From the NCBI GenBank assembly GCA_002898795.1, contig BEIG01000018.1:1-40815 (forward strand): a DNA stretch of 40,815 nt, written 5' to 3'. Under the pieces are notes generated by a model. The model had not been told where the DNA came from. It was given only the letters and a program-made list of their open reading frames with translations, and ran no database searches. The position numbers and the translations under genes are program-made. This document shows, in pieces, positions 773-34,224 of this stretch (the first letter of the stretch is position 1; each line of letters starts with the position of its first letter). Source of the DNA: a bacterium HR30 (lineage in GTDB: Bacteria > Desulfobacterota > Binatia > HRBIN30).

Positions 773-929
773 GATTGTGCGGCAACGTTTCTGTTGACGC
801 GGCAACGTGGGTGGCGGTGGGAACAACGGGGGCTCGGTGGTGATGGGGGCAATCCAAGGAGCGGAACGTCGGGCAAAGAACGCTAGTTGCCGAGGGCAGA
901 GCGCTGCGGGTAAAGTGGCAGCTTCGTGT

Positions 930-2753
930 ATGAGAGCGCCAAGTTGGCCGGTGTGGCGGAGTTTCGGAGGATGGGTGGCCGGGGTAAGCGTGCTCGCGCT
1001 CGTCTTACCAAGCCACTCTTGGGCCATCGGTTGCCGGGGTGCGGGGCTTGCCGAGGACCTGCACTCGCTTGTGCAGGTGATTTTTCACGATTGGTCTAGT
1101 GTCGCTTGCACGACCGCAGACCAAAACTTGGACGCGCGCCTTTCCGCAGCCGACCTCACCCAAATGATTCTAACTGGCTTCGATCCGCCGAAAGGTCCGA
1201 ACGTTACGTTCGTCGGGTTCGCTACCGCCGATGGCCGGCTCCTGGAGCCAATCACGTATGCCGATGGCTTGCCGGTGTACCAGCGAAACTCTGGATCGGG
1301 CTTTGTACTCGTGGTCGAGGGAAGGGCGGGTCCAAGCGGCCGCACCGTGGGTCAGGTAACGTTCCAACCCGGTGGCGGTGGAGACGGCCGCCCCGACCTG
1401 CAGATCCTCTTCGACCGTTCTCTCGGTGACGGCAGCACAGACGTGTGTTTTGGCGGCGTGCCTGCAGTGGTGCCACCCGACTATCGCCCAGGCCGATTCG
1501 TTACCGACGCGCTGAACGACATCGGGTGTAACTTTAGTTTGTCGTCCTCGAGTTCCTGCGTGACCAATTCCTACGGTCAACCCATTTTCGCCGCCTCGGG
1601 AAGCCAGGTCCAGTTCTGTGCCACGATTACCCGCACCTTGGCCTTTCCCCGAGGCGACACCACCGTCACGGTGCGATTGCGGGACACGAGCGGCCACCTC
1701 GGCTCGCCGCGACAAGCGATTCTTCGGGTGGGGGAAGCCGTGCCGTCACCGACGCCTTCGCCCTCGAGGGCGATACCCACAGCCTCGCCCTCTTTCACCG
1801 CCGTCCGAACCCTGACCCCAAGCTTCACTCCATTAGCCACAGCCACTCGCTCGGCCACTGCTACTGTGTCCGAGCCTACACCTCCAACGCCAACGGCAAC
1901 GGGCACGCTCTCGCCTTCGCGCACGACGACCCAAACACCGACCGCGCTCCGGTCGCCAACAGCTACGGCTACGGTCACCCTTCGGATCTCACCAACACCC
2001 ACGCCCACGCTTACCCTCACGCCTTCCCGTTCACCCATGCCGCCCAACCGCTCCGCAACCCCAACGCAAACACAGACGGCAACGGCCACTCGCACGCCCA
2101 CCTTGGCGCGCCCCACGTTCACACGCACCCGCACCGCCACGCCAACCGCGACCATGACGGGCGGGGTCTCTTCCGGCCCGGTGATTACCTTCTTTGGCAT
2201 TACCCGTGCCGACGACACCATTGTCGAGCCAAGCGGCACGGCTCAAGATGGCACACCGATTTTCGAACGTCCCACGGGCGCGGGTTTCAACTTGGTCATC
2301 GAGGGCCGGCCTGGAGCGACGAACGTGGCCGTGGGCACGGTGACCTTTCGTGAGAACGGGCCGCCGGATCTACAAATTCTGGTGTCCAAGCCCCTTGGAG
2401 ATGGCAGCACCCGTGTTTGCGATCGTTTGCCCCCTGGAGCTGGCGGCGTTCCTGCAATCGATCCACCGATGTTCCGCGACGTACCTGAGGTCATCGATGC
2501 CATGAATGACTTAGGCTGCCGCTTCCTCGATGGCGCGGGTCAGCCTCGCGGCCGAGGGAAAAATGATGCCTGTGTGCTCAAGCCCGACGGCGGCTTCGAT
2601 TTCGTCAATGCGACTTCCACTGTGCAGTTCTGCGGGTTTATCGACGTGGCAACACGATTCCCGCCTGGAGAGGCGCGGGTGACCGTGCGACTGCGCGACG
2701 AACGGGGCCAAACTGGCCCGCCCGCACAAATCATCCTGCGCATTCAGTCGTGA
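930..2753 (+). CDS. Secreted protein with two related domains around a Thr/Pro/Ser linker
   Basis: 607 residues from ATG 930. An upstream in-frame start at 807 would add 41 low-complexity residues; I prefer 930 because it opens directly into a signal peptide (Arg, then a hydrophobic core, then a cleavage-like SHSWA). Residues ~55-80 contain a dockerin-like calcium loop (DQNLDARLSAADL). Two similar ~170-residue domains follow, each with a conserved FVGFATADG/FFGITRADD-type start, a PDLQIL...LGDGST segment, paired Cys and a final TVRLRD strand. They flank a ~140-residue Thr/Pro/Ser linker. The repeated domain looks like an Ig-like or beta-sandwich surface module, but I cannot name its family. 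Probably exported; function unknown. The two domains clearly share an origin, so an internal duplication is likely. Confidence 0.8.
   Translation: MRAPSWPVWRSFGGWVAGVSVLALVLPSHSWAIGCRGAGLAEDLHSLVQVIFHDWSSVACTTADQNLDARLSAADLTQMILTGFDPPKGPNVTFVGFATADGRLLEPITYADGLPVYQRNSGSGFVLVVEGRAGPSGRTVGQVTFQPGGGGDGRPDLQILFDRSLGDGSTDVCFGGVPAVVPPDYRPGRFVTDALNDIGCNFSLSSSSSCVTNSYGQPIFAASGSQVQFCATITRTLAFPRGDTTVTVRLRDTSGHLGSPRQAILRVGEAVPSPTPSPSRAIPTASPSFTAVRTLTPSFTPLATATRSATATVSEPTPPTPTATGTLSPSRTTTQTPTALRSPTATATVTLRISPTPTPTLTLTPSRSPMPPNRSATPTQTQTATATRTPTLARPTFTRTRTATPTATMTGGVSSGPVITFFGITRADDTIVEPSGTAQDGTPIFERPTGAGFNLVIEGRPGATNVAVGTVTFRENGPPDLQILVSKPLGDGSTRVCDRLPPGAGGVPAIDPPMFRDVPEVIDAMNDLGCRFLDGAGQPRGRGKNDACVLKPDGGFDFVNATSTVQFCGFIDVATRFPPGEARVTVRLRDERGQTGPPAQIILRIQS
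1738..2160 (+). repeat. Low-complexity Thr/Pro/Ser-coding tract
   Basis: Coding repeat inside the secreted protein, rich in TPT, TAT and SPT triplets of residues with no hydrophobic core. It would form an extended linker between the two domains. Such tracts can change length by slippage. Confidence 0.8.
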
Positions 2754-22871: not shown

Positions 22872-24641
22872 TCATTCGCTTCGACAGCCTCGGTCGCAAC
22901 TGTCGCCGTCCACGCGGTTACCGTCGTCGCACTCCTCGCCGGCGTCGCGGCGTCCGTTTCCGCACGTACTTGGCCGGCACACTAGCGCCAGTCGGTCGGC
23001 ATCCACTTGCCCGCTCGTCGTGTACGCTGCGAGCTGGAGGAGCTTACGCCCGGCCACCCATCGCCCCCCGAGCACTCGTCGCAGCGGCACCGCCAACTGC
23101 ACCGGCTCGCCACACACGTTGCGGCTGGAGTTCACCACGCCACTCTGGAACACCTGCCCGTTGCGATAAATGGCCACACCGAAAGCAGCCGCTGCCTGTT
23201 CCAGGGCAGCAAGATTGGCCATGTCGGCTGGGTCCGCGCTGGTAGCCAATGGCCGGTCGATCTCGATGGCCTCGATTCCCATAGGGAGGCATTCCGGCAG
23301 GCGGGCATCTTCCTGATTCAAGCACAGCCGCAGGGAAAACACGCATACGCCGTCGTTCGCCCCCGAACCGAGGTCGCAGCGAGGATCGCCCTCGGCACAA
23401 ACGAGCTTGTTCTTCGGCACGCCGCGACGGCTCCGGGGTGGTACGGGGTTCGTCAACCACTCGTGGTGGCAGTTACTCCTGCTCAGTCCGGTTCCTGGTA
23501 TGCAGGGATTCCCCGGTGCCAACTCCGTGCAGTCAACACCCGACGTAGCTGTTGCCGTCGCCGAGGGCGTCGCCGTGGCAGTGGGCGGCGGCGTCGGCGT
23601 TGAACTGGGTGTCGCCGTCGCCGAAACAGTGGGGCTCGGTGTCGGCGTCCCTGCGGCTGTCGCGCTTGCCGACGGCGTCAGAGTTGTTGTGGCGCTTGGA
23701 GACGGTGTCGAACTGGGGGTCGTCGTTGGCGTCGGCGAATCTGTAGGTGTGGCGCTCGCGGGGATCGTTGGCGTGGCGGAGGCCGTCGCGCTCGCAGTGA
23801 ACGTGGGAGACGGTGTTGGTGTGGGAGTGGCCGTGAGAGTGGCCGTGCAGCTCGGCGAGAGCGTGGGCGTGTTCGTGGGCGAAGAAGTGCGTGTCGCGGT
23901 TCGAGTCGGCGTGGATGTGGGCAACACGTAATCCACATCGAGCAACGGCCGGTTCGACACCACCGGATCGTCGCCATCGTAAAATGCCAGAGAATCGGCG
24001 AGAACGTTCGGAAGTCGGCCAGGAAAATAAACGCGTATCTGCGTCCGCCCGGCGCGGTTGATTGCTGCCGCACCTGCAGGGCCGAAATCGATCCGCAACA
24101 ACGACGGCACCGTTGGGGCAGTACCGACCACGCAAGCTGCGTTTGCAGCAGTGGTTGGCGCGTCGAAGTCGGCAACTTCGATCTCCGGGTGGTCGCTGAA
24201 GCTACCGGTACGGACATCGACCACTGGCACTCCGAAAGCGCTGTTCGTGAAGGGATTGAGTCCACTGCCGCCGCGGCGGGTCAGCCACAAACGTGCTCCC
24301 GTAACCACGGCATCGTCCGGCAACGCCGAGGTGTCGAACGAAACAATGGCGCGAGTGAAGGTGTTATCGGCATGTTCGCCAAGTCGCCACGCACTGCTGT
24401 CGATGCCGGAAGGAGCGCCGCCGGTGTTCGTGAAAATGAACCCATCGTTCAAACCACCTTCGGAAGAAAATCGGGCGGCCGGAGCTGGCCAGGCATTGGT
24501 ACTGATTCGTTCATCCCACAGCCAAGTCGAGAAGAGAAGGAAACTCGAAGAGCTTCTCCGCAACACCGTCGAGAACTGCCCGTCTCCTCGATGCACCACC
24601 AAATTAGCCGCAGCACGGCGTGAATCCACAACGTGCCCCAC
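22872..24641 (-). CDS. Secreted protein: DNRLRE-like domain, Thr/Pro linker, Cys-rich CGNG repeat
   Basis: Up to 589 residues from GTG 24641. Residues ~50-245 resemble a DNRLRE/CBM96-like beta domain (ARFSSEGGLNDGFIFTNTGG ... RAIVSFDTSALPDDAVVTGA). A Thr/Pro/Ser/Ala linker of ~135 residues follows. The C-terminal part has several Cys and ends with TCGNGRRDAGEECDDGN and GDSCDRGCRSE, the DUF4215/Myxococcus Cys-rich repeat (one copy, normally disulfide-bonded and calcium-linked). The N-terminus has only a poor signal peptide (SSSSFLLFSTWLW), so the 5' end may be misplaced or broken; another frame nearby (about 24575-24640) is more hydrophobic. Probably cell-surface or secreted; function unknown. 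Confidence 0.75.
   Translation of the reverse strand: MGHVVDSRRAAANLVVHRGDGQFSTVLRRSSSSFLLFSTWLWDERISTNAWPAPAARFSSEGGLNDGFIFTNTGGAPSGIDSSAWRLGEHADNTFTRAIVSFDTSALPDDAVVTGARLWLTRRGGSGLNPFTNSAFGVPVVDVRTGSFSDHPEIEVADFDAPTTAANAACVVGTAPTVPSLLRIDFGPAGAAAINRAGRTQIRVYFPGRLPNVLADSLAFYDGDDPVVSNRPLLDVDYVLPTSTPTRTATRTSSPTNTPTLSPSCTATLTATPTPTPSPTFTASATASATPTIPASATPTDSPTPTTTPSSTPSPSATTTLTPSASATAAGTPTPSPTVSATATPSSTPTPPPTATATPSATATATSGVDCTELAPGNPCIPGTGLSRSNCHHEWLTNPVPPRSRRGVPKNKLVCAEGDPRCDLGSGANDGVCVFSLRLCLNQEDARLPECLPMGIEAIEIDRPLATSADPADMANLAALEQAAAAFGVAIYRNGQVFQSGVVNSSRNVCGEPVQLAVPLRRVLGGRWVAGRKLLQLAAYTTSGQVDADRLALVCRPSTCGNGRRDAGEECDDGNRVDGDSCDRGCRSE
23540..23930 (-). repeat. Low-complexity Thr/Pro/Ser/Ala-coding tract
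   Basis: Minus-strand coding linker with runs such as TPTPTPSPTFT and TATPSATAT. It is the counterpart of the linker at 1738-2160 in the other secreted protein and shows the same design of modules joined by disordered spacers. Confidence 0.8.
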
Positions 24642-27939: not shown

Positions 27940-29652
27940 TCACACCCCGATGTGACCAGCCAACTCCGGATTGAGCAGCGCCCTCAATTCCGAAACCACC
28001 CGCGCTGCTTCTTCATAGGAGCGGCCCAATAGCAAAAGCGCCTGATTTCCCAAGGCCAAGCCCACGGCCAGATTTTCGGGGAACACGGCTGTCACACCCG
28101 TTTGCGCAAGGTGGGGGAGTTCCGCTTCCTCCTTGGCACTGACAATCACTGCGATCTCCGGATTGCGGGCGCGTGCGTGGTGCACAATCCGTTCGACTAG
28201 CCGCGGATAGCTGAAGGTGAACACGATCAATCGACACCGTGCCACGCCTGCCGCGTCGAGCAAACGTAAGCGGCTGGCGTCCGCCAGGATCACCTTGTGG
28301 CCTTGCCGTTTGGCCTCTTGGAACCGCGCGGGATCCGATTCGAAGGCCACATACGGTACGCCAGCCGCTTCGAGCACGGCAGCCACCTGTCGACCCACGC
28401 GCCCGCATCCCAACAACAGCACGTGGCCTTCGACGCGCTCGTGTTCCGATTCGAGCCAAGCCACCTGTTCCGCCTCCGCCGTGGTTGGTCGAACTCGCGC
28501 GAGCCGGCGCGCCAGAAAATCGTGTCGCCCAATGAAAAAAGGGGCCGCACCCATGCTCAGGAGCAACCCACCGAGCAATGGCTGAGCCACCTCCGTAGGC
28601 AGAAGACCTCCTTGAAAGCCTTGCGAGAGCAAGAGCAACCCAAACTCGCCGCCGTGAGCAAGGATCAACGCACTGCGCACGGTAACACCACGAGGCCAAC
28701 GAAACATCGCTCCGACCATTCCAACCAGGATCGCTTTGCCCAGCGTGAACAGCAGAGCGCAGCCAAACACCTGAGGCCACGCAGTCACGAAAAGCCCCGT
28801 ATCGATTGTCATTCCTACCGTGACGAAAAACAAACCCAGCAGCAGCTCGCGAAACGGGCGCACATCGTCCTCGATCTGGTGACGGAAGTCCGTTTCCCCG
28901 AGCACCATGCCGACGAGGAAAGCACCGATGGGGGCGGAAAAGCCCAGTGCACGTGCCGCAAATCCGGTGCCGAGGGCGAGCAACAAAGCGGTCAGCAACA
29001 TGAGCTCGTTCGACCGCATCCGAGCAACGTTGCCTAACAGCCGATGGAGCAACGGCCGACCGAAGAAGGCGACAAACAACACGACGATCGCCACTAGGGC
29101 AAACCCCGACACGATCCCCCAACCGACAACCGGGGTCGGTACGGCACGAAGCCCCAGCAAAACCAAGAAAGGTAACGTCGCCAGATCTTGAAAAAGCAAA
29201 ATGCCGACAACCCAGCGACCATGATGGGTAAAAAGTTCCCCCTGGTCGCCGAGCTGTTTCAGCGTCAGAGCGGTGGATGACATGCTGACTGCTCCACCCA
29301 CGAGCACGGCTTGATCCACTTTCAGTCCGGCAAACACGCTGGCCGCCGTGACGGCAGCCGTCGTCAGCGCAACCTGAAGGGCCCCGGCACCAAACACGGA
29401 ACGGCGCGCGCCCCAAAGGGTACTCAAGGAGAAGTCGAGCCCGATGGAAAACATCAGAAACACCACGCCCAACTCGGCCAAGAATCGAACGCCCGGAGTG
29501 TCGCCTACCAGGTGGGCGCCATGTGGACCCACGCTCAGTCCGGCGAGCAAATAGCCGAGAACCACGGGTAGGCGTAACTGCGCGCACACCCACACTCCCA
29601 CAGCGCTGGCGGCTACGAGCACCAAGGTCTCGAACGCAAGATGCTCCGGCAT
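27940..29652 (-). CDS. KefB/CPA2-type monovalent cation:proton antiporter with RCK domain
   Basis: 570 residues. About 12 hydrophobic segments fill residues 5-375; motifs LGYLLAGLSVGPHG (~31), FLMFSIGLDFSLS (~65), LFQDLATLPFLVLLG (~158) and GAFLVGMVLGETDFRHQIED (~245) are the CPA2 pattern. A C-terminal RCK/TrkA-N domain begins VLLLGCGRVGRQVAAVLE (~415), with Rossmann GxGxxG and acidic FESDPARF after beta-2, so it binds NAD(H) or a nucleotide. Expected role: K+/H+ exchange protecting against electrophile or pH stress. No KefF/KefG partner is adjacent. KefB-type antiporters are known in transmissible heat-resistance loci. It lies 145 bp behind the HPF-sigma gene and 118 bp before adk. Confidence 0.93.
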   Translation of the reverse strand: MPEHLAFETLVLVAASAVGVWVCAQLRLPVVLGYLLAGLSVGPHGAHLVGDTPGVRFLAELGVVFLMFSIGLDFSLSTLWGARRSVFGAGALQVALTTAAVTAASVFAGLKVDQAVLVGGAVSMSSTALTLKQLGDQGELFTHHGRWVVGILLFQDLATLPFLVLLGLRAVPTPVVGWGIVSGFALVAIVVLFVAFFGRPLLHRLLGNVARMRSNELMLLTALLLALGTGFAARALGFSAPIGAFLVGMVLGETDFRHQIEDDVRPFRELLLGLFFVTVGMTIDTGLFVTAWPQVFGCALLFTLGKAILVGMVGAMFRWPRGVTVRSALILAHGGEFGLLLLSQGFQGGLLPTEVAQPLLGGLLLSMGAAPFFIGRHDFLARRLARVRPTTAEAEQVAWLESEHERVEGHVLLLGCGRVGRQVAAVLEAAGVPYVAFESDPARFQEAKRQGHKVILADASRLRLLDAAGVARCRLIVFTFSYPRLVERIVHHARARNPEIAVIVSAKEEAELPHLAQTGVTAVFPENLAVGLALGNQALLLLGRSYEEAARVVSELRALLNPELAGHIGV

Positions 29653-29797: not shown

Positions 29798-30877
29798 TCA
29801 CAGCCCCCCCGCCAGCGCTGCTCGCAAGCGTTCCTGAATGACGCTTACCAGCTCTTTGACGCGTTGCGGCTCCAAGCCCGTCACCAAGGCAACCTCGGGA
29901 ACCGTAAACCCCTCGACGAAGTAAAGCTCGAATACATCTTTCTCCGCACGCGGCCACGTTTGCACGAACTTCTGGACGGCTTCTAGCAGTTCGTGCCGCT
30001 CTGCAGTCAGTTCTGGATTTGGCGCGGCAGGGTCTGGAACCAACTCGCGCAACTCCGTGATCACTGGTTCGAACTCGCGCACGATCAGATCCAGAGGCTG
30101 CTCCGCATCGTAACCGGCAGCAAGATCATCTTCATCGGGACGTTTCGTCTCCTGATCGACCGGTACCCGCTCCGTCTGAGCCCGTCGAAACATGCGCCGG
30201 CGGCGAGCCAACTCTTTGTGGAGCAGTTGGAACACCCAAACTAACCAACCGACATTGGCCGGCTTTTCCCGCCAGTGAAGCAGCACATGCTGAACCACCG
30301 TATCGGCGACACCACGCGGATCCACGGCTCGGGGAGGAAGGTCGCCGCTAAACTCGTCGTGCCGCACGTGCCGCCGCACATGTTCGACCATGCGCCGATA
30401 GTGCCTTTTCAGAAAATCCATGACCACCGCTCGCGGCTCCTGTGGCCCTTCTCCCGGTGGTAGCGGCTCAGGAGCGAAACCGGTGGCGCGCACACGAGGC
30501 AGTTGCGCGCGGCGTGCTTTCCGCTTCCAGTCTTCTTCCTTCCGCTGATGGCCCTTGACCTTCTCGACCTCGCGCACCAAGGCGTCAAACGCTTTGTCCA
30601 GGGCCAAAATCGGTTCGGGTGCGGCCTTTTCCGTGTGCAGGATGTGCTTCGGCAAGCGTAAGGTGAGGGCTGTAGTGTATCGCGTACGGTGTGGATTTTT
30701 TTCCAACAAGACGTGCAAATGCACCCCGTCGGGCGGGTAGTCCCGCAGGTGTTTCCCCAGCGACTGCACGCGCCTCGACAATTGTTTTCGTAAAAGCGGG
30801 TGGCCGTGGAGGTTGCGCGTGACCAAGTTCCACGGAAAGGGAACCCCTTGTTCTGGGCTTTGTTGTGTTTCTGGCAT
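29798..30877 (-). CDS. Fusion of an S30AE/HPF ribosome-hibernation domain and an ECF-type sigma factor
   Basis: 359 residues from ATG 30877, which has GGAGGA 9 bp upstream; the open frame runs on to a GTG at 30919. Residues ~16-125 form an S30AE (HPF/RaiA) domain: LVTRNLHGHPLLRKQLSRRV, a VHLHVLLEKN strand, and the closing helix LDKAFDALVREVEKVKGHQR. Residues ~155-235 match sigma region 2: MDFLKRHYRRMVEHVRRHV, a 2.2-like GVADTVVQHVLLHWRE and 2.4-like WVFQLLHKELARRRRMF. Residues ~300-355 are region 4 with HTH EVALVTGLEPQRVKELVSVI. An acidic, Pro-rich linker lies between regions 2 and 4. Known HPF domains bind the 30S decoding site; a sigma factor on the same chain is unusual. Its neighbours are MarC, protease and Hsp20 genes. 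The regulatory meaning is inferred. Confidence 0.85.
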   Translation of the reverse strand: MPETQQSPEQGVPFPWNLVTRNLHGHPLLRKQLSRRVQSLGKHLRDYPPDGVHLHVLLEKNPHRTRYTTALTLRLPKHILHTEKAAPEPILALDKAFDALVREVEKVKGHQRKEEDWKRKARRAQLPRVRATGFAPEPLPPGEGPQEPRAVVMDFLKRHYRRMVEHVRRHVRHDEFSGDLPPRAVDPRGVADTVVQHVLLHWREKPANVGWLVWVFQLLHKELARRRRMFRRAQTERVPVDQETKRPDEDDLAAGYDAEQPLDLIVREFEPVITELRELVPDPAAPNPELTAERHELLEAVQKFVQTWPRAEKDVFELYFVEGFTVPEVALVTGLEPQRVKELVSVIQERLRAALAGGL

Positions 30878-30915
30878 CAGCGTTCGTCCTCCGTTGTGCG
30901 AAAAATTCGCGATCC

Positions 30916-31548
30916 TCACGACTCACACCCGCGCAGTTGCGCGAGCGCGTCCAAGGCAAACTGAACAGCAACGGCCGCAAGCAGCAAACCCATCAACCGG
31001 TTGACCAGTTTCAAGGCCAAAGGGCTAACCCGATGAATCCCGTGAACGGCAAGGGCAAAGATGCCGTAACTGACCAGCGCCACGAGAGCGATCACCACGA
31101 ACAACGTCAGGCGCTGCAGCAGCGATCCGGCCTGCTGGAACAGGATCAGCGAGGTGGAAATGGCCCCCGGGCCAGCCAGCATCGGCACCGCCAAGGGGCT
31201 CACGGCAACGTCTTCCTTCGCTGCACCCGCGAGAACCTCCTCGTTGGTTTCCTGCGCGGCAGACCTTTGGCCGTGCAACATGTCGAGAGCAATGCGCAAC
31301 AACAAGATACTGCCAGCAATTTGAAACGCAGCGGGGCTCACATGCAAGTAACGGAAGATCGCTTCCCCCAAGATCGTGAACGCGAAGAGGACACCAGCCG
31401 CCACGCTACAGGCAACACGCGCCGTGTTGAGTCGGGCCTCGCTGCTTTGGTCCGGAGTCATGGCCAGAAATGCAGGCACGACAGCGATCGGATCGACGAT
31501 CACGAACAACGTCGTGAAGGACAGGATCGTGTACTCGAGCCAACCCAT
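30916..31548 (-). CDS. MarC-family integral membrane protein
   Basis: 210 residues from ATG 31548; the frame extends to a GTG at 31554. About six hydrophobic segments; the N-terminal LFVIVDPIAVVPAFLAMTP is the family signature. The mid-protein AVPMLAGPGAISTSLIL is the second conserved loop. The MarC (UPF0056) family is predicted as membrane transport proteins but has no firm substrate. It lies 33 bp behind the SDH protease and 38 bp before the HPF-sigma gene, so it is probably transcribed with both. Confidence 0.9.
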   Translation of the reverse strand: MGWLEYTILSFTTLFVIVDPIAVVPAFLAMTPDQSSEARLNTARVACSVAAGVLFAFTILGEAIFRYLHVSPAAFQIAGSILLLRIALDMLHGQRSAAQETNEEVLAGAAKEDVAVSPLAVPMLAGPGAISTSLILFQQAGSLLQRLTLFVVIALVALVSYGIFALAVHGIHRVSPLALKLVNRLMGLLLAAVAVQFALDALAQLRGCES

Positions 31549-31581
31549 GACCACGCTCCGAGCCTATGTCCGCGGCAAACC

Positions 31582-32424
31582 TCAGTGGGGCCGCGTTGCA
31601 CCTCCGCGCTCCGCCGAGCGACGCGGTCCTGGCAAATACTCCACCGATGGCACGCGGCGCACCGGCTGTGGGTACAGTTCCATCAATTCCAGCACTTCGT
31701 GGGGGATATCGCTTCGGACCGGCAGCCCCAACTCCCTCGCCTTTTGCACGGTGATGGGAAAGTCGTGGGTCCAAGTTCCCGTCGACAACAACTCAGCCAG
31801 TTGTTGTGCCTTTTCCTCCGTTTGGCTGCGAGTAAGCAGTTGCGCCACCGCATCGCGCACCTGCTTGATTGCCTTTTCCGCCACATCCGCGAGAATCAAC
31901 GTTTGGTCGTCCACTTCGGCCACAGGCTTTTCCCGCACGACCTTGAGCAACGAGGCAGCTGGATATTGCCCCAGTTGAGGGTCCACCGGGCCCAAAACCG
32001 CGTGAGGCGACATGACGATTTCGTCAGCCGCGAGTGCAATGAGGGTCCCACCGGACATGGCGTAGTGCGGCACGAACACGGTGACCTTGCCTTTATGCTC
32101 CCGCACCGCACGGGCAATTTGCAACGATGCCAGCACGAGCCCACCGGGAGTGTGCAACACGATGTCCAAGGGAACTTCGGGATCGGTCAGCTCGCACGCC
32201 CGCATTACCGCCTCCGCGTCCTCGATGTCGATGTAACGCATCACGGGGAAACCCAACAAACTCATGGTTTCCTGCCGGTGAACCAACAGGATCAGGCGCG
32301 AGCCGCGCCGCTTTTCGATGCGCGCAATTAAACGTTGCCTCGCGTTCTCTAGGAGTCTCTGGCGGAACAGTGGCTGCACCGCCGAGAAAATAAAGAAAAG
32401 CCAAAAAAGGTCGCTCAGGCTCAT
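31582..32424 (-). CDS. Membrane-anchored serine protease of the SDH (ClpP/SppA-like) family
   Basis: 280 residues from ATG 32424 with a GGAGG ribosome site; the extra 29 residues open upstream have no such site. One N-terminal hydrophobic helix (4-21, SDLFWLFFIFSAVQPLF) anchors the protein. The crotonase/ClpP-like fold has oxyanion loop VLHTPGGLVLASLQIARA (89-106), nucleophile S124 in PHYAMSGGTLIALAADEI, and HAVLGPVDPQLG (141-152). This fits the Pfam serine dehydrogenase proteinase family. The C-terminus is Arg-rich (PGPRRSAERGG). Its place between three Hsp20 genes and the HPF-sigma gene suggests a role in membrane or protein quality control. Confidence 0.88.
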   Translation of the reverse strand: MSLSDLFWLFFIFSAVQPLFRQRLLENARQRLIARIEKRRGSRLILLVHRQETMSLLGFPVMRYIDIEDAEAVMRACELTDPEVPLDIVLHTPGGLVLASLQIARAVREHKGKVTVFVPHYAMSGGTLIALAADEIVMSPHAVLGPVDPQLGQYPAASLLKVVREKPVAEVDDQTLILADVAEKAIKQVRDAVAQLLTRSQTEEKAQQLAELLSTGTWTHDFPITVQKARELGLPVRSDIPHEVLELMELYPQPVRRVPSVEYLPGPRRSAERGGATRPH

Positions 32425-32556
32425 ATGCCCTCCACCGTCAACCGTGAATGTGCCCCCATTTTCTACGCGAGACTTGTCCCCTACGCCACAGACTCCTACC
32501 CGGTCAGGCAAGACCAGGTCTTCGCCGCGCGCGCTCGACGGAGCCGTGCCAACGGA

Positions 32557-33030
32557 CTAGGAACCGCGCACCTGTACTGGAATCTTCTTTGCTGGCGTGC
32601 GTTTCGGTAAACGCACGAAAAGGCGCCCGTTGCGGAATTTCGCCTCTGCCTTTTCGGGAACAACCTCCGCGGGAAGAGGAACCCAGCGGGAGAAGGCACC
32701 GTAGGCACATTCGGAATACCAATACCCCTCGTGCTTTTCTTCTCGCTCGCGCCTTTTTTCGCCGCGCAGCACGAGATAGTCGCCGACGACCTCCAATTGG
32801 AAGTCTTCTTTCCCGAGGCCAGGCAATTCTGCAGTGACTTCTACGGCTTCAGCCGTCTCCTCCACTTCGATCGCCGGCAAGTTCCAACTGGAAGAGACCA
32901 TTTCTCCGTCCCCGCTTGCCGTGCGGTCTTGATCCTGCCGCCGGAGGAACCACCGTGAAATTGCCTCTTGAACCTCGCTTCTTAACCGCGCCAGCGTGTC
33001 ACGCCACTTTTCGGGAAGCCAGGTGGCCAT
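32557..33030 (-). CDS. Small heat-shock protein (Hsp20), copy 1
   Basis: 157 residues from ATG 33030, preceded by GGAGGAATACC. The alpha-crystallin domain runs from about residue 50: PAIEVEETAEAVEVTAELPG, VVGDYLVLRGEKRREREEK and FRNGRLFVRLPK; the Cys in YSECAYGAFSR is unusual. The C-terminal I-x-V motif (IPV in KKIPVQV) docks neighbouring subunits. An ATP-independent holdase for unfolding proteins. It is the third Hsp20 in the series and 82 bp behind copy 2, with a strong hairpin in the gap. Confidence 0.93.
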   Translation of the reverse strand: MATWLPEKWRDTLARLRSEVQEAISRWFLRRQDQDRTASGDGEMVSSSWNLPAIEVEETAEAVEVTAELPGLGKEDFQLEVVGDYLVLRGEKRREREEKHEGYWYSECAYGAFSRWVPLPAEVVPEKAEAKFRNGRLFVRLPKRTPAKKIPVQVRGS

Positions 33031-33072
33031 GGTATTCCTCCTTTGTCTTGTGTCCCCCCATGCAGGGAGATC

Positions 33073-33099
33073 GCGGCAGACCCTTTTCGGGTCTGCCGC
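33073..33099 (-). other. Perfect hairpin between Hsp20 genes
   Basis: On the minus strand GCGGCAGACCC and GGGTCTGCCGC form an 11-bp stem around a GAAAA loop, between the stop of Hsp20 copy 2 and the start of copy 1. There is no T-run after it on either strand. It is more likely an RNA-processing or stability element, or a weak attenuator, than a full terminator. Confidence 0.7.
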
Positions 33100-33111
33100 C
33101 CCGGTCACGAG

Positions 33112-33513
33112 TTAGCTGATCTTCACTTCGATCTTCCGAGGTCGCGCCTTTTCTGCCTTCGGAAGGTGGAGTGTCAGCACGCCGTGTTTGAGGTCGGCAG
33201 AAATTTTCTCCTGATCGATCACTTCGCTGAGTTCGAATTGCCGGAAAAAGTTCGGCAGCTCGAACTCACGCCAAACGACCTCGCCCGGGGAACTTGGCTT
33301 GGGCGTAGCTCGGATGGTCAGTACATCTTCCTCGACCCGGACTTCCAGATCCTCCTTGCCGACACCAGGCAAGTCGGCCAGCAACACTAACTCCTCTGGA
33401 GTTTCGTAAATATCGACTGCAGGTGCGACGTAGCGATCCTCGGCACGGGTCGCTTCACGACTTCGGGTCGGCTGATTCGCAGCAGTTGGCGCCGCAACGG
33501 TTTTCTCCGCCAT
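33112..33513 (-). CDS. Small heat-shock protein (Hsp20), copy 2
   Basis: 133 residues from ATG 33513, preceded by GGGAGGTGA; the open frame reaches 33759, but only because it shadows copy 3. The alpha-crystallin domain begins APAVDIYETPEELVLLADLP and continues VEEDVLTIRATPK and LKHGVLTLHLPKAE. It has a variant beta-5/6 segment (FELPNFFRQFEL) with paired Phe residues, unlike the other copies. C-terminal motif IEV in RKIEVKIS. 37 bp behind copy 3. Confidence 0.93.
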   Translation of the reverse strand: MAEKTVAAPTAANQPTRSREATRAEDRYVAPAVDIYETPEELVLLADLPGVGKEDLEVRVEEDVLTIRATPKPSSPGEVVWREFELPNFFRQFELSEVIDQEKISADLKHGVLTLHLPKAEKARPRKIEVKIS

Positions 33514-33550
33514 GATCGTCACCTCCCTCGTTGTCCTAGTCGGCCCACGA

Positions 33551-34006
33551 TCAGCCCACCTGAACGGCAATCGCCTTGGGCTTCGCTTGTTCTGCCTTGG
33601 GCAACGTGACCAACAGGACCCCGTTTTTGTACTCGGCTTTGGCTTTGCTTTCGTCCACATCCACCGGTAGCTCGATGCGCCGCGAGAACTTGCCCGTCGT
33701 GCGCTCCTCGCGGTGCACGGCCTCCGATTTGCCCACCAGGCCGCGGCCCTTTTCTCCACTGATCGTTACGCTGTTCCGCAGCGCAGTGATGTTCACGGAA
33801 TTGGGGTCGACACCGGGAACGAGGACTTCCACGTAAAATGCATCCTTATCCTCGTACACATTGACCGGAGGGTGCCCCCGTTCGCCGCGCCCCGGCCACA
33901 ATCCCGTTCGCAACAGCGAAGGGAACCGCAAACCAGCGCTCTCGAAGGCGCGATCGATCTCACGCCGCAGTGCCTCCATTTCCTGCCATGGATCCCAGCG
34001 AGCCAT
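33551..34006 (-). CDS. Small heat-shock protein (Hsp20), copy 3 (first in the series)
   Basis: 151 residues from ATG 34006, which has AAAGGAGGG 7 bp upstream. The N-terminus MARWDPWQEMEALRREIDRAF is the typical WDPxxE form of bacterial Hsp20. The crystallin domain contains VNVYEDKDAFYVEVLVPGVD, LRNSVTISGEKGRG, a FSRRIELPVDVD segment and EYKNGVLLVTLPKAEQ, ending with IAV (KAIAVQV). It is the most typical of the three. It heads the leftward block; the intergenic 34007-34224 should hold its promoter. Confidence 0.95.
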   Translation of the reverse strand: MARWDPWQEMEALRREIDRAFESAGLRFPSLLRTGLWPGRGERGHPPVNVYEDKDAFYVEVLVPGVDPNSVNITALRNSVTISGEKGRGLVGKSEAVHREERTTGKFSRRIELPVDVDESKAKAEYKNGVLLVTLPKAEQAKPKAIAVQVG

Positions 34007-34013
34007 ACGTGCT

Positions 34014-34022
34014 CCCTCCTTT
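34014..34022 (-). promoter_or_regulatory. Ribosome binding site of Hsp20 copy 3
   Basis: AAAGGAGGG on the minus strand, ending 7 bp before ATG 34006. Very strong and similar to those of copies 1 and 2, pointing to high expression when induced. Confidence 0.75.
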
Positions 34023-34053
34023 CCAATTTCACGTCGTTCCGTGATGCGCGCTT

Positions 34054-34081
34054 GAGGTAAGCACCAATCGGACCACGTCAA
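34054..34081 (-). promoter_or_regulatory. Possible promoter of the stress block
   Basis: On the minus strand TTGACG (34076-34081) and TACCTC (34054-34059) are 16 bp apart, about 50 bp before the first Hsp20 start. The -35 fits sigma-70/heat-shock types; the -10 is poor. No CIRCE inverted repeat (TTAGCACTC type) is present. An ECF-type promoter for the local sigma factor would not be recognised by eye. Confidence 0.3.
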
Positions 34082-34224
34082 GCATTGCTCCGATGTTCGC
34101 GGAAAAAGTTCCGCCGGCCTCGCAAAAAGAAAAAAGAAGACGGCCACCTACTTTCCTCGAGTCGGAACGCTGCATTCCACGAGCGCCGGGTTCCTGGCCC
34201 GCCATAGCCCGGAGGCATCACCCT

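Follow-up and report, generated by a model that had tools for sequence, protein, structure and literature searches.

A gene joining an HPF-type domain to a degenerate ECF-sigma-derived module, and its relatives in several bacterial phyla

The fusion gene and its domains

The window, a 40,815-nucleotide stretch of DNA from a bacterium HR30 (contig BEIG01000018.1), carries on its minus strand a gene in which an HPF/S30AE domain is followed by sequence derived from regions 2 and 4 of an ECF sigma factor. The gene and its parts are as follows.

29798..30877, minus strand: HPF-sigma-like fusion gene, 359 residues, ATG at 30875-30877, stop at 29798-29800 (ORF list, homologues, dN/dS)
30888..30892, minus strand: Shine-Dalgarno-like GGAGG, 10 nt before the fusion ATG (read from the sequence)
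30542..30838, minus strand: HPF/S30AE domain, residues 14-112 (Pfam PF02482, 27.9 bits; AlphaFold2; VIA Z 15.3 to 4hei)
30437..30541, minus strand: basic linker from HPF to sigma-2-like part, helical or of low confidence, residues 113-147 (AlphaFold2 pLDDT blocks 46-64)
30167..30436, minus strand: sigma-2-like helices, residues 148-237 (hhalign, AlphaFold2)
30302..30304, minus strand: D192, in the place of the conserved region-2.2 glutamine (alignment with ECF sigmas and the family)
30020..30166, minus strand: disordered sigma2-sigma4 linker, residues 238-286 (pLDDT blocks 41-53 for residues 241-290)
29810..30019, minus strand: sigma-4-like helix-turn-helix, residues 287-356 (HMM, AlphaFold2, structure comparison)

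A sequence-only reading of this DNA had described a 359-residue frame with a ribosome site and had taken the fusion for a genuine gene. Frame and site both exist; they lie on the minus strand (the plus-strand frame across 29798-30877 contains five stops), and translation might instead begin at an in-frame GTG at 30919. The gene of a congener, 80% identical, likewise encodes 359 residues from an ATG, its first residues differing from those of the window protein, and the two genes give a dN/dS of 0.08. Both folds, the full-length homologues in several phyla and this ratio establish the fusion as a real single gene, and a chance or annotation artefact is ruled out by the minus-strand ORF, the S30AE score, the profile-profile match with its controls and the dN/dS.

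The S30AE model (PF02482) matches residues 19-110 above the Pfam gathering score (27.9 vs 23.7 bits), and the predicted HPF part superposes on V. cholerae HPF 4hei (VIA Z 15.3, rmsd 1.4, 92 aligned), on RaiA in the Balon-bound 70S (VIA Z 14.8) and on 2rql (Foldseek TMt 0.84). The NCBIfam yfiA equivalog gives 23.6 bits against a cut-off of 40.9, and by these scores the protein is a member of the HPF superfamily outside the HPF/YfiA equivalog. Two further S30AE proteins are encoded in this genome, among them a long HPF whose neighbouring gene looks by eye like rpoN; the cell's ordinary HPF is therefore not the fusion. Besides the fusion and the long HPF there is a third HPF-like protein, a short one, at G000:C86:15394-15675.

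For the sigma half, the Sigma70_r2 model finds no match in a Pfam search even at E 10, and region 4 is evident yet under the curated score (Sigma70_r4_2, 21.2 vs 25.7 bits). The sigma70-ECF model TIGR02937 reaches 39.1 against a cut-off of 42.9 (E 5.7e-10, residues 211-355), and the congener protein is matched weakly by Sigma70_ECF (15.8 bits vs a cut-off of 21.1, residues 155-342). Profile-profile comparison and fold nevertheless recover regions 2 to 4: residues 149-358 of the window clade match ECF sigmas (33-200) at 98.6% in hhalign (E 8e-16), with reversed and shuffled controls at no more than 2.3%. Against the same reference alignment of 14 ordinary ECF sigmas (a subset of the 20 first found, the later script containing fewer loci), five other branches score 94.7-99.2% and the gamma branch fails at 3.8%.

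The AlphaFold2 model of the window protein (mean pLDDT 78.1) starts with an HPF fold, continues through three helices of sigma-2 type and a disordered linker, and ends in four sigma-4-like helices, the relative placement of these domains being unsure (pTM 0.50); the model of a relative from another phylum (L156) has much the same layout (mean pLDDT 79.8). The sigma half aligns with the sigma factor of the RpoE-NepR complex 5uxx (VIA Z 15.1, rmsd 3.3, 153 aligned) in a comparison limited to chains ranked by Foldseek. Since helical bundles easily reach high Z, it is the sequence profiles that carry most of the weight for the sigma claim. In total, the checks proposed in the sequence-only reading came out in favor of the S30AE domain and of both predicted folds, and for the sigma regions it was profile-profile comparison and fold rather than the Sigma70 HMMs that recovered them. 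By the refuting condition which that reading had set itself, the absence of a Sigma70_r2 match counts against it.

Neighbouring genes and the spread of the family

The genes around the fusion are the following.

30916..31554, minus strand: MarC-family membrane protein, 38 nt upstream of the fusion (Pfam MarC, 163.5 bits)
31582..32511, minus strand: ClpP-like SDH-type serine proteinase (Pfam SDH_protease, 382 bits)
32557..34147, minus strand: three Hsp20 genes, upstream (ORFs 32557-33108, 33112-33759 and 33551-34147; Pfam HSP20 in all three)
27940..29652, minus strand: KefB-like CPA2-type cation:proton antiporter with TrkA_N, downstream (Na_H_Exchanger 184.8, TrkA_N 70.7 bits)

With the listed ORF starts, the gaps from SDH proteinase to MarC and from MarC to fusion are 27 and 38 nt, and given these short distances the three genes likely form one operon. 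The Hsp20 ORFs 33112-33759 and 33551-34147 overlap as listed, so one of their starts is internal. Adenylate kinase and ABC1 kinase genes (Pfam) also lie downstream of the fusion. The link to stress drawn in the sequence-only reading agrees with these surroundings, in which the three Hsp20 genes, the SDH-type protease and the CPA2 antiporter all point to stress. An anti-phage role was considered and rejected, PADLOC returning nothing beyond a single weak match to HEC-01B (E 0.013). Elsewhere in the window are two large ORFs, one with long threonine/proline/serine repeats (807-2753, plus strand) and one with such repeats that ends in a cysteine-rich CGNG...ECDDGN segment (22872-24641, minus strand).

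How common this domain order is could not be said from the window; a database search for the architecture found it widespread, in several phyla. Of the 148 genomes in the class to which the window belongs, 5 (G000, G002, G007, G043, G066) have a full-length homologue, as have 11 of 395 sampled from its phylum; in the acidobacterial sample, drawn from the phylum that includes L156 (genome title Blastocatellia), homologues were found in 21 of 297 genomes and span both halves in 19. One Blastocatellia genome, G527, carries two different copies, L156 and L196. Among 72,556 plasmid records, a query from genome G505 matched 304 at E 0.01, 263 of them over at least 80% of the query length, and the window protein gave 18 matches at E 1, 12 over 80% of its length. 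Methylorubrum extorquens AM1 has an unannotated match (H30; 24.6% identity, E 1e-3), located on a replicon. A scan of named genomes with a six-sequence alignment (three alpha, two beta, one from the window's class) found 100 relatives, the best 80 of which yielded 77 loci; by title these are mostly alphaproteobacterial (73 of the 77), with Paraburkholderia and Blastocatellia besides. Members are named hypothetical protein, sigma-70 factor, FliA or sigma-28 in databases.

The HPF half is not equally recognisable throughout. S30AE matches 18 of 23 members at E <= 0.1, not all of which pass the cut-off, and when profiles are compared with that of 24 canonical HPFs, the window, f78/f104, beta and central branches score 78-94%, the similarity fading to 31% in alpha, 4.3% in gamma and 0.1% in f18. 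Because direct HPF similarity fades in these three branches, ribosome binding may not be universal across the family. A tree of 64 rows (L080, L082 and L195 left out) sets the alpha, beta, gamma, f18 and f78/f104 branches cleanly apart and mixes acidobacterial with window-class sequences. The mixing suggests horizontal transfer, a tentative reading because the tree carries a warning of long branches meeting.

Proteostasis genes, sought by tblastn with references for Hsp20, ClpK, FtsH, HdeD, YfdX, DegP, ClpP-like proteins, chaperonins and others, lie in the fetched stretch at 77/77 named-genome loci, 10/10 plasmid loci and 8/12 loci of the window's phylum (4/12 being without), counts biased by close relatives, by the choice of query, by references taken in part from the same loci and by unequal stretch lengths. 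The acidobacterial loci score 2/19 against 1/20 control stretches, and with the 77/77 set so largely alphaproteobacterial, a universal link to proteostasis islands is not supported. The G066 locus repeats the window's set of SDH protease, fusion and Hsp20, and that of L156 combines Hsp20, SDH protease, FtsH, fusion and ClpK. In a congener that lacks the fusion (G001), the window's SDH protease is matched weakly and partially (best E 3.2e-6), which hints, from this one genome, that protease and fusion come and go as a block.

A second neighbour recurs in part of the family. A baeRF_family10 gene is present at 6/20 acidobacterial loci and 2/12 loci of the window's phylum, and at 0/86 proteobacterial loci and 0/20 controls, three of the eight positive loci having supplied the queries; in all but one of the eight it lies within about 320 bases of the locus member. 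The window's own genome gave no match. Bacterial proteins resembling aeRF1 have been proposed, on the strength of their HPF neighbourhoods, to act in hibernation (PMC6514570, available parts), and Balon has been shown to do so (PMC10901736, likewise in part). A figure legend of the latter lists alternative sigma70 factors, RaiA, Hsp20, HdeD and MarC in Balon operons, and we infer that some of these sigma70 factors belong to the family described here. The neighbour sets of Balon/baeRF stress operons (Hsp20, HdeD, MarC, RaiA, sigma70) overlap with those of the fusion, and baeRF_family10 adjoins some members. Balon itself is an aeRF1 relative, unlike the fusion. At two of the three f18 loci (L167 and L168, genomes G222 and G187) the fusion is followed by a site-2-protease-like gene, RseP-type by eye, the reference sequence for which came from one of the two.

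Altered sigma residues and orf11 of the heat-resistance island

The region-2.2 glutamine of sigma factors contacts the beta-prime clamp and is a core-binding residue. It is present in 14/14 ordinary ECF sigmas and in 0/65 HPF-bearing family sequences, where its position is taken by aspartate in 63, including D192 of the window protein, by tyrosine in L080 and by alanine in L152; the 66th aligned row, the HPF-less relative L082, has glycine. Roughly ten extra residues precede region 2.2 in the family as compared with ECF sigmas. The 17-residue region-4.2 helix carries a mean net charge of +4.1 in ECF sigmas (n=14, +2 to +6) and of -1.0 in the family (n=21 including L082, range -4 to +4; Mann-Whitney p = 4e-6, with related rows counted as independent), the 15 acidobacterial members averaging -0.1. 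Exceptions are the window protein and its congener (+1), G066 (+4) and L156 (+3), and the window clade also keeps a basic region-2.4 segment (+3 to +4). Because of the basic 2.4 segment or basic 4.2 helix that they keep, some members, such as those of the window clade and L156, may still contact promoter DNA. In most of the family, promoter picking is unlikely, because the changes fall where sigmas contact core polymerase and -35 DNA. The sequence-only reading had called the C-terminal half a full sigma factor with regions 2 and 4 and a clear helix-turn-helix. Sigma-derived domains and helix-turn-helix are real, but a full sigma factor is not supported: the window protein has D192 and a 4.2 helix of only +1, across the family the region-2.2 glutamine is missing and the 4.2 charge is lost on average, and the E. 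coli member discussed below is not among the genes that its island needs for heat or chlorine resistance.

Conservation within pairs differs between branches. Window protein and congener are most alike in the sigma2-sigma4 linker (92%), followed by HPF (87%), sigma-2 (78%) and sigma-4 (75%). Of the folded parts, sigma-4 is the most diverged in the three alpha and beta pairs (36-54% identity vs 66-93% for HPF); the f78/f104 pair reverses this trend (66% vs 57%), and gamma pairs also keep sigma-4 better than HPF (71% vs 67% and 100% vs 89%), the HPF part of the closest gamma pair having a dN/dS of 1.6 from few changes. The linker is not the best-kept segment in the alphas, f18 and f78/f104. A QPD linker motif, typically [FYWH]xQPDExLxxED, occurs in 53 of the 65 HPF-bearing rows; it is missing in L003, f18 and f78/f104 and degenerate in the window clade. 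The same motif is found in the 215-residue, HPF-less sigma-like protein of a Phenylobacterium zucineum plasmid (L082:8917-9561), which is probably a stand-alone relative of the family. The tyrosine-bearing protein of a Roseomonas mucosa plasmid (L080:8980-10095) lacks about 22 residues of the sigma-4-like helix-turn-helix of its close relatives.

The family member on the E. coli plasmid NZ_CP061755.1, annotated as a hypothetical protein, is flanked by hdeD-GI and trx-GI, which is where the tLST gene order in the available text of PMC8290217 has orf11. DNA of orf11 occurs in 152 of 5,426 complete E. coli genomes, 144 of them with at least 80% of the gene. By itself orf11 shows a sub-threshold region 4 only, with neither HPF (4.3%) nor ECF sigma (3.8%) recognisable directly. 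The gamma profile, however, matches the alpha, beta and central profiles at 99.5-99.7% over nearly its whole length, and by this chain of profiles the orf11 of tLST/LHR islands (Enterobacteriaceae, Pseudomonas, Acinetobacter) is a much diverged member of the same family, homologous to the fusion over nearly full length. The window shares Hsp20 and a KefB-type antiporter with tLST, and ClpK, YfdX, HdeD and Trx are unmatched in it; it is a relative of tLST in gene content and no tLST. Genome G505, placed in the window's phylum, holds a tLST segment (L067) whose orf11 is 99.7% identical to a Pseudomonas fragi plasmid copy, reflecting either recent transfer or contamination. The sigma-24-like factor mentioned for a Methylobacillus island (PMC8290217, in part) could also belong to the family.

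These data bear on the model put forward in the sequence-only reading, in which the protein is an active alternative sigma factor and a stress regulon is switched as idle ribosomes sequester or release it. Regions 2 and 4 are both recognisable, several relatives exceed a curated sigma score (Sigma70_r4_2 at 37.3, 28.5 and 28.0 vs 25.7 bits; Sigma70_r4 at 27 vs 24.1), stress genes lie nearby, and alpha and beta members are entered in databases as sigma-70, FliA or sigma-28. Weighing against this model are the missing glutamine in 65/65 HPF-bearing sequences, the on average uncharged 4.2 helix and the low conservation of region 4 in alpha and beta pairs. Moreover, beta-proteobacterial stress islands (L077, L081, L158-L160) have, by eye, a conserved CTTGAAA...CCTATCT upstream of the adjoining hsp20, resembling ordinary sigma-32 promoters. 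A sigma-32-like pattern found no match in the window (0.89 expected by chance), and an unsystematic look by eye revealed no family-specific promoter. Of the genes reported in the available text to reduce heat or chlorine resistance when lost from E. coli MG1655 lacZ::LHR, none is orf11, whose loss also left lipid oxidation unchanged (PMC8407380, in part); this argues against a master sigma of the island, which should be needed. In LHR2 orf11 is moreover interrupted by other genes (PMC5383660, available sections). Free-versus-ribosome-bound switching as such is possible, and we consider the active, ribosome-gated sigma factor unlikely. A promoter-selecting sigma of this kind is less likely than a hibernation factor with a sigma-derived partner-binding module.

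Alternatively, the C-terminal part could be a sigma mimic that titrates an anti-sigma factor in the way PhyR titrates NepR, the amount left free depending on ribosome binding. PhyR is an anti-anti-sigma factor whose sigma-like domain is used without promoter recognition. The PhyR_sigma-like Pfam model matches 16/23 members at E <= 0.1, L003 exceeding its cut-off (28.6 vs 27) and the window protein staying below it (14.4 vs 27 bits), and the predicted sigma2-sigma4 packing resembles that in anti-sigma complexes and PhyR (5uxx Z 15.1, SigW-RsiW 13.8, PhyR 9cb6 12.4). The PhyR similarity is, however, no stronger than that to true sigmas, the window protein has no receiver-domain Pfam match up to E 10, none of the eight window neighbours scanned matches an anti-sigma factor, and the domain placement on which the packing depends is unsure. 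We regard such a mimic as quite improbable.

A third possibility dispenses with transcription: the sigma fold may have been co-opted for ribosome contacts or dimerisation in place of the C-terminal domain of long HPF. In long HPF it is the second domain that does the ribosome dimerising. Consistent with this possibility, the family has lost sigma contact residues, ribosomes are dimerised by long HPF acting as one protein (PMC5620043, in part), and in HibA the module attached to the HPF domain, although unrelated, binds the ribosome as well (PMC13324472, in part). Against it, both the aspartate motif of region 2.2 and the whole sigma2-sigma4 arrangement can be recognised from phylum to phylum, beyond what a neutral scaffold would seem to need, and a role confined to the ribosome does not strike us as probable.

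A proposed hibernation factor and its implications

Combining the folds, the purifying selection, the conserved linker and the altered sigma residues with stress surroundings that are found in some lineages only, we suggest as the best explanation, held tentatively and at somewhat less than an even chance, that the protein is an HPF-type hibernation factor carrying a degenerate, ECF-sigma-derived protein-binding module on a long flexible linker. Judged by its fold and family, the HPF domain would most likely occupy the small-subunit mRNA/tRNA channel when ribosomes stand idle during proteotoxic or oxidative stress, as HPF and RaiA do. Promoter selection through canonical -35 recognition has probably been lost from the sigma-derived part, which would have been retained as a protein-binding module. 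By descent its most natural partner would be core RNA polymerase, tethered or parked at hibernating ribosomes, the main alternative being an anti-sigma factor, and the flexible linker would likely be the coupling element. A bolder version, in which this is a cross-phylum dual hibernation factor whose HPF domain holds the idle ribosome and whose sigma part holds core RNA polymerase, parking both under proteotoxic stress through an often QPD-bearing linker and with a diverged member in the E. coli island, is doubtful as a whole.

Several known systems share one half of this design. HPF and RaiA have the same N-terminal domain, with the Pfam cut-off passed and the fold matched, and the fusion adds a sigma-derived module behind it. 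ECF sigmas (TIGR02937; SigW, RpoE and AlgU structures) contain regions 2 and 4 in the same order and resemble the fusion in fold and profile, whereas the fusion has an HPF domain in front, a replaced glutamine, an uncharged recognition helix and, in most members, the linker motif. PhyR resembles the sigma half in fold (Z up to 12.4), and the fusion has an HPF domain instead of its receiver. The archaeal HibA also joins an HPF/RaiA domain to an unrelated module, which unlike that of the fusion is a CBS module placed ahead of the HPF domain (PMC13324472, available parts). HPF domains fused to other modules, as in HibA, and sigma mimics such as PhyR are already known; the combination, its spread and the orf11 link were not found within the literature searched. 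No HPF-sigma fusion was found in print, including the available parts of PMC8290217, PMC8407380, PMC5383660, PMC13324472, PMC6514570, PMC10901736 and PMC11102965, with subscription papers, preprints and supplements mostly outside the scope of the search.

The family places parts of both central gene-expression machines in one protein, in several phyla and under purifying selection in the pairs compared, and it travels with mobile stress-survival islands. The database labels sigma-70 factor or FliA on its members may mislead. The chain of profiles gives a domain identity to orf11, which had stood unexplained in an intensively studied island for heat and chlorine resistance, and the family gives a direct handle on whether ribosome and polymerase hibernation are physically coupled.
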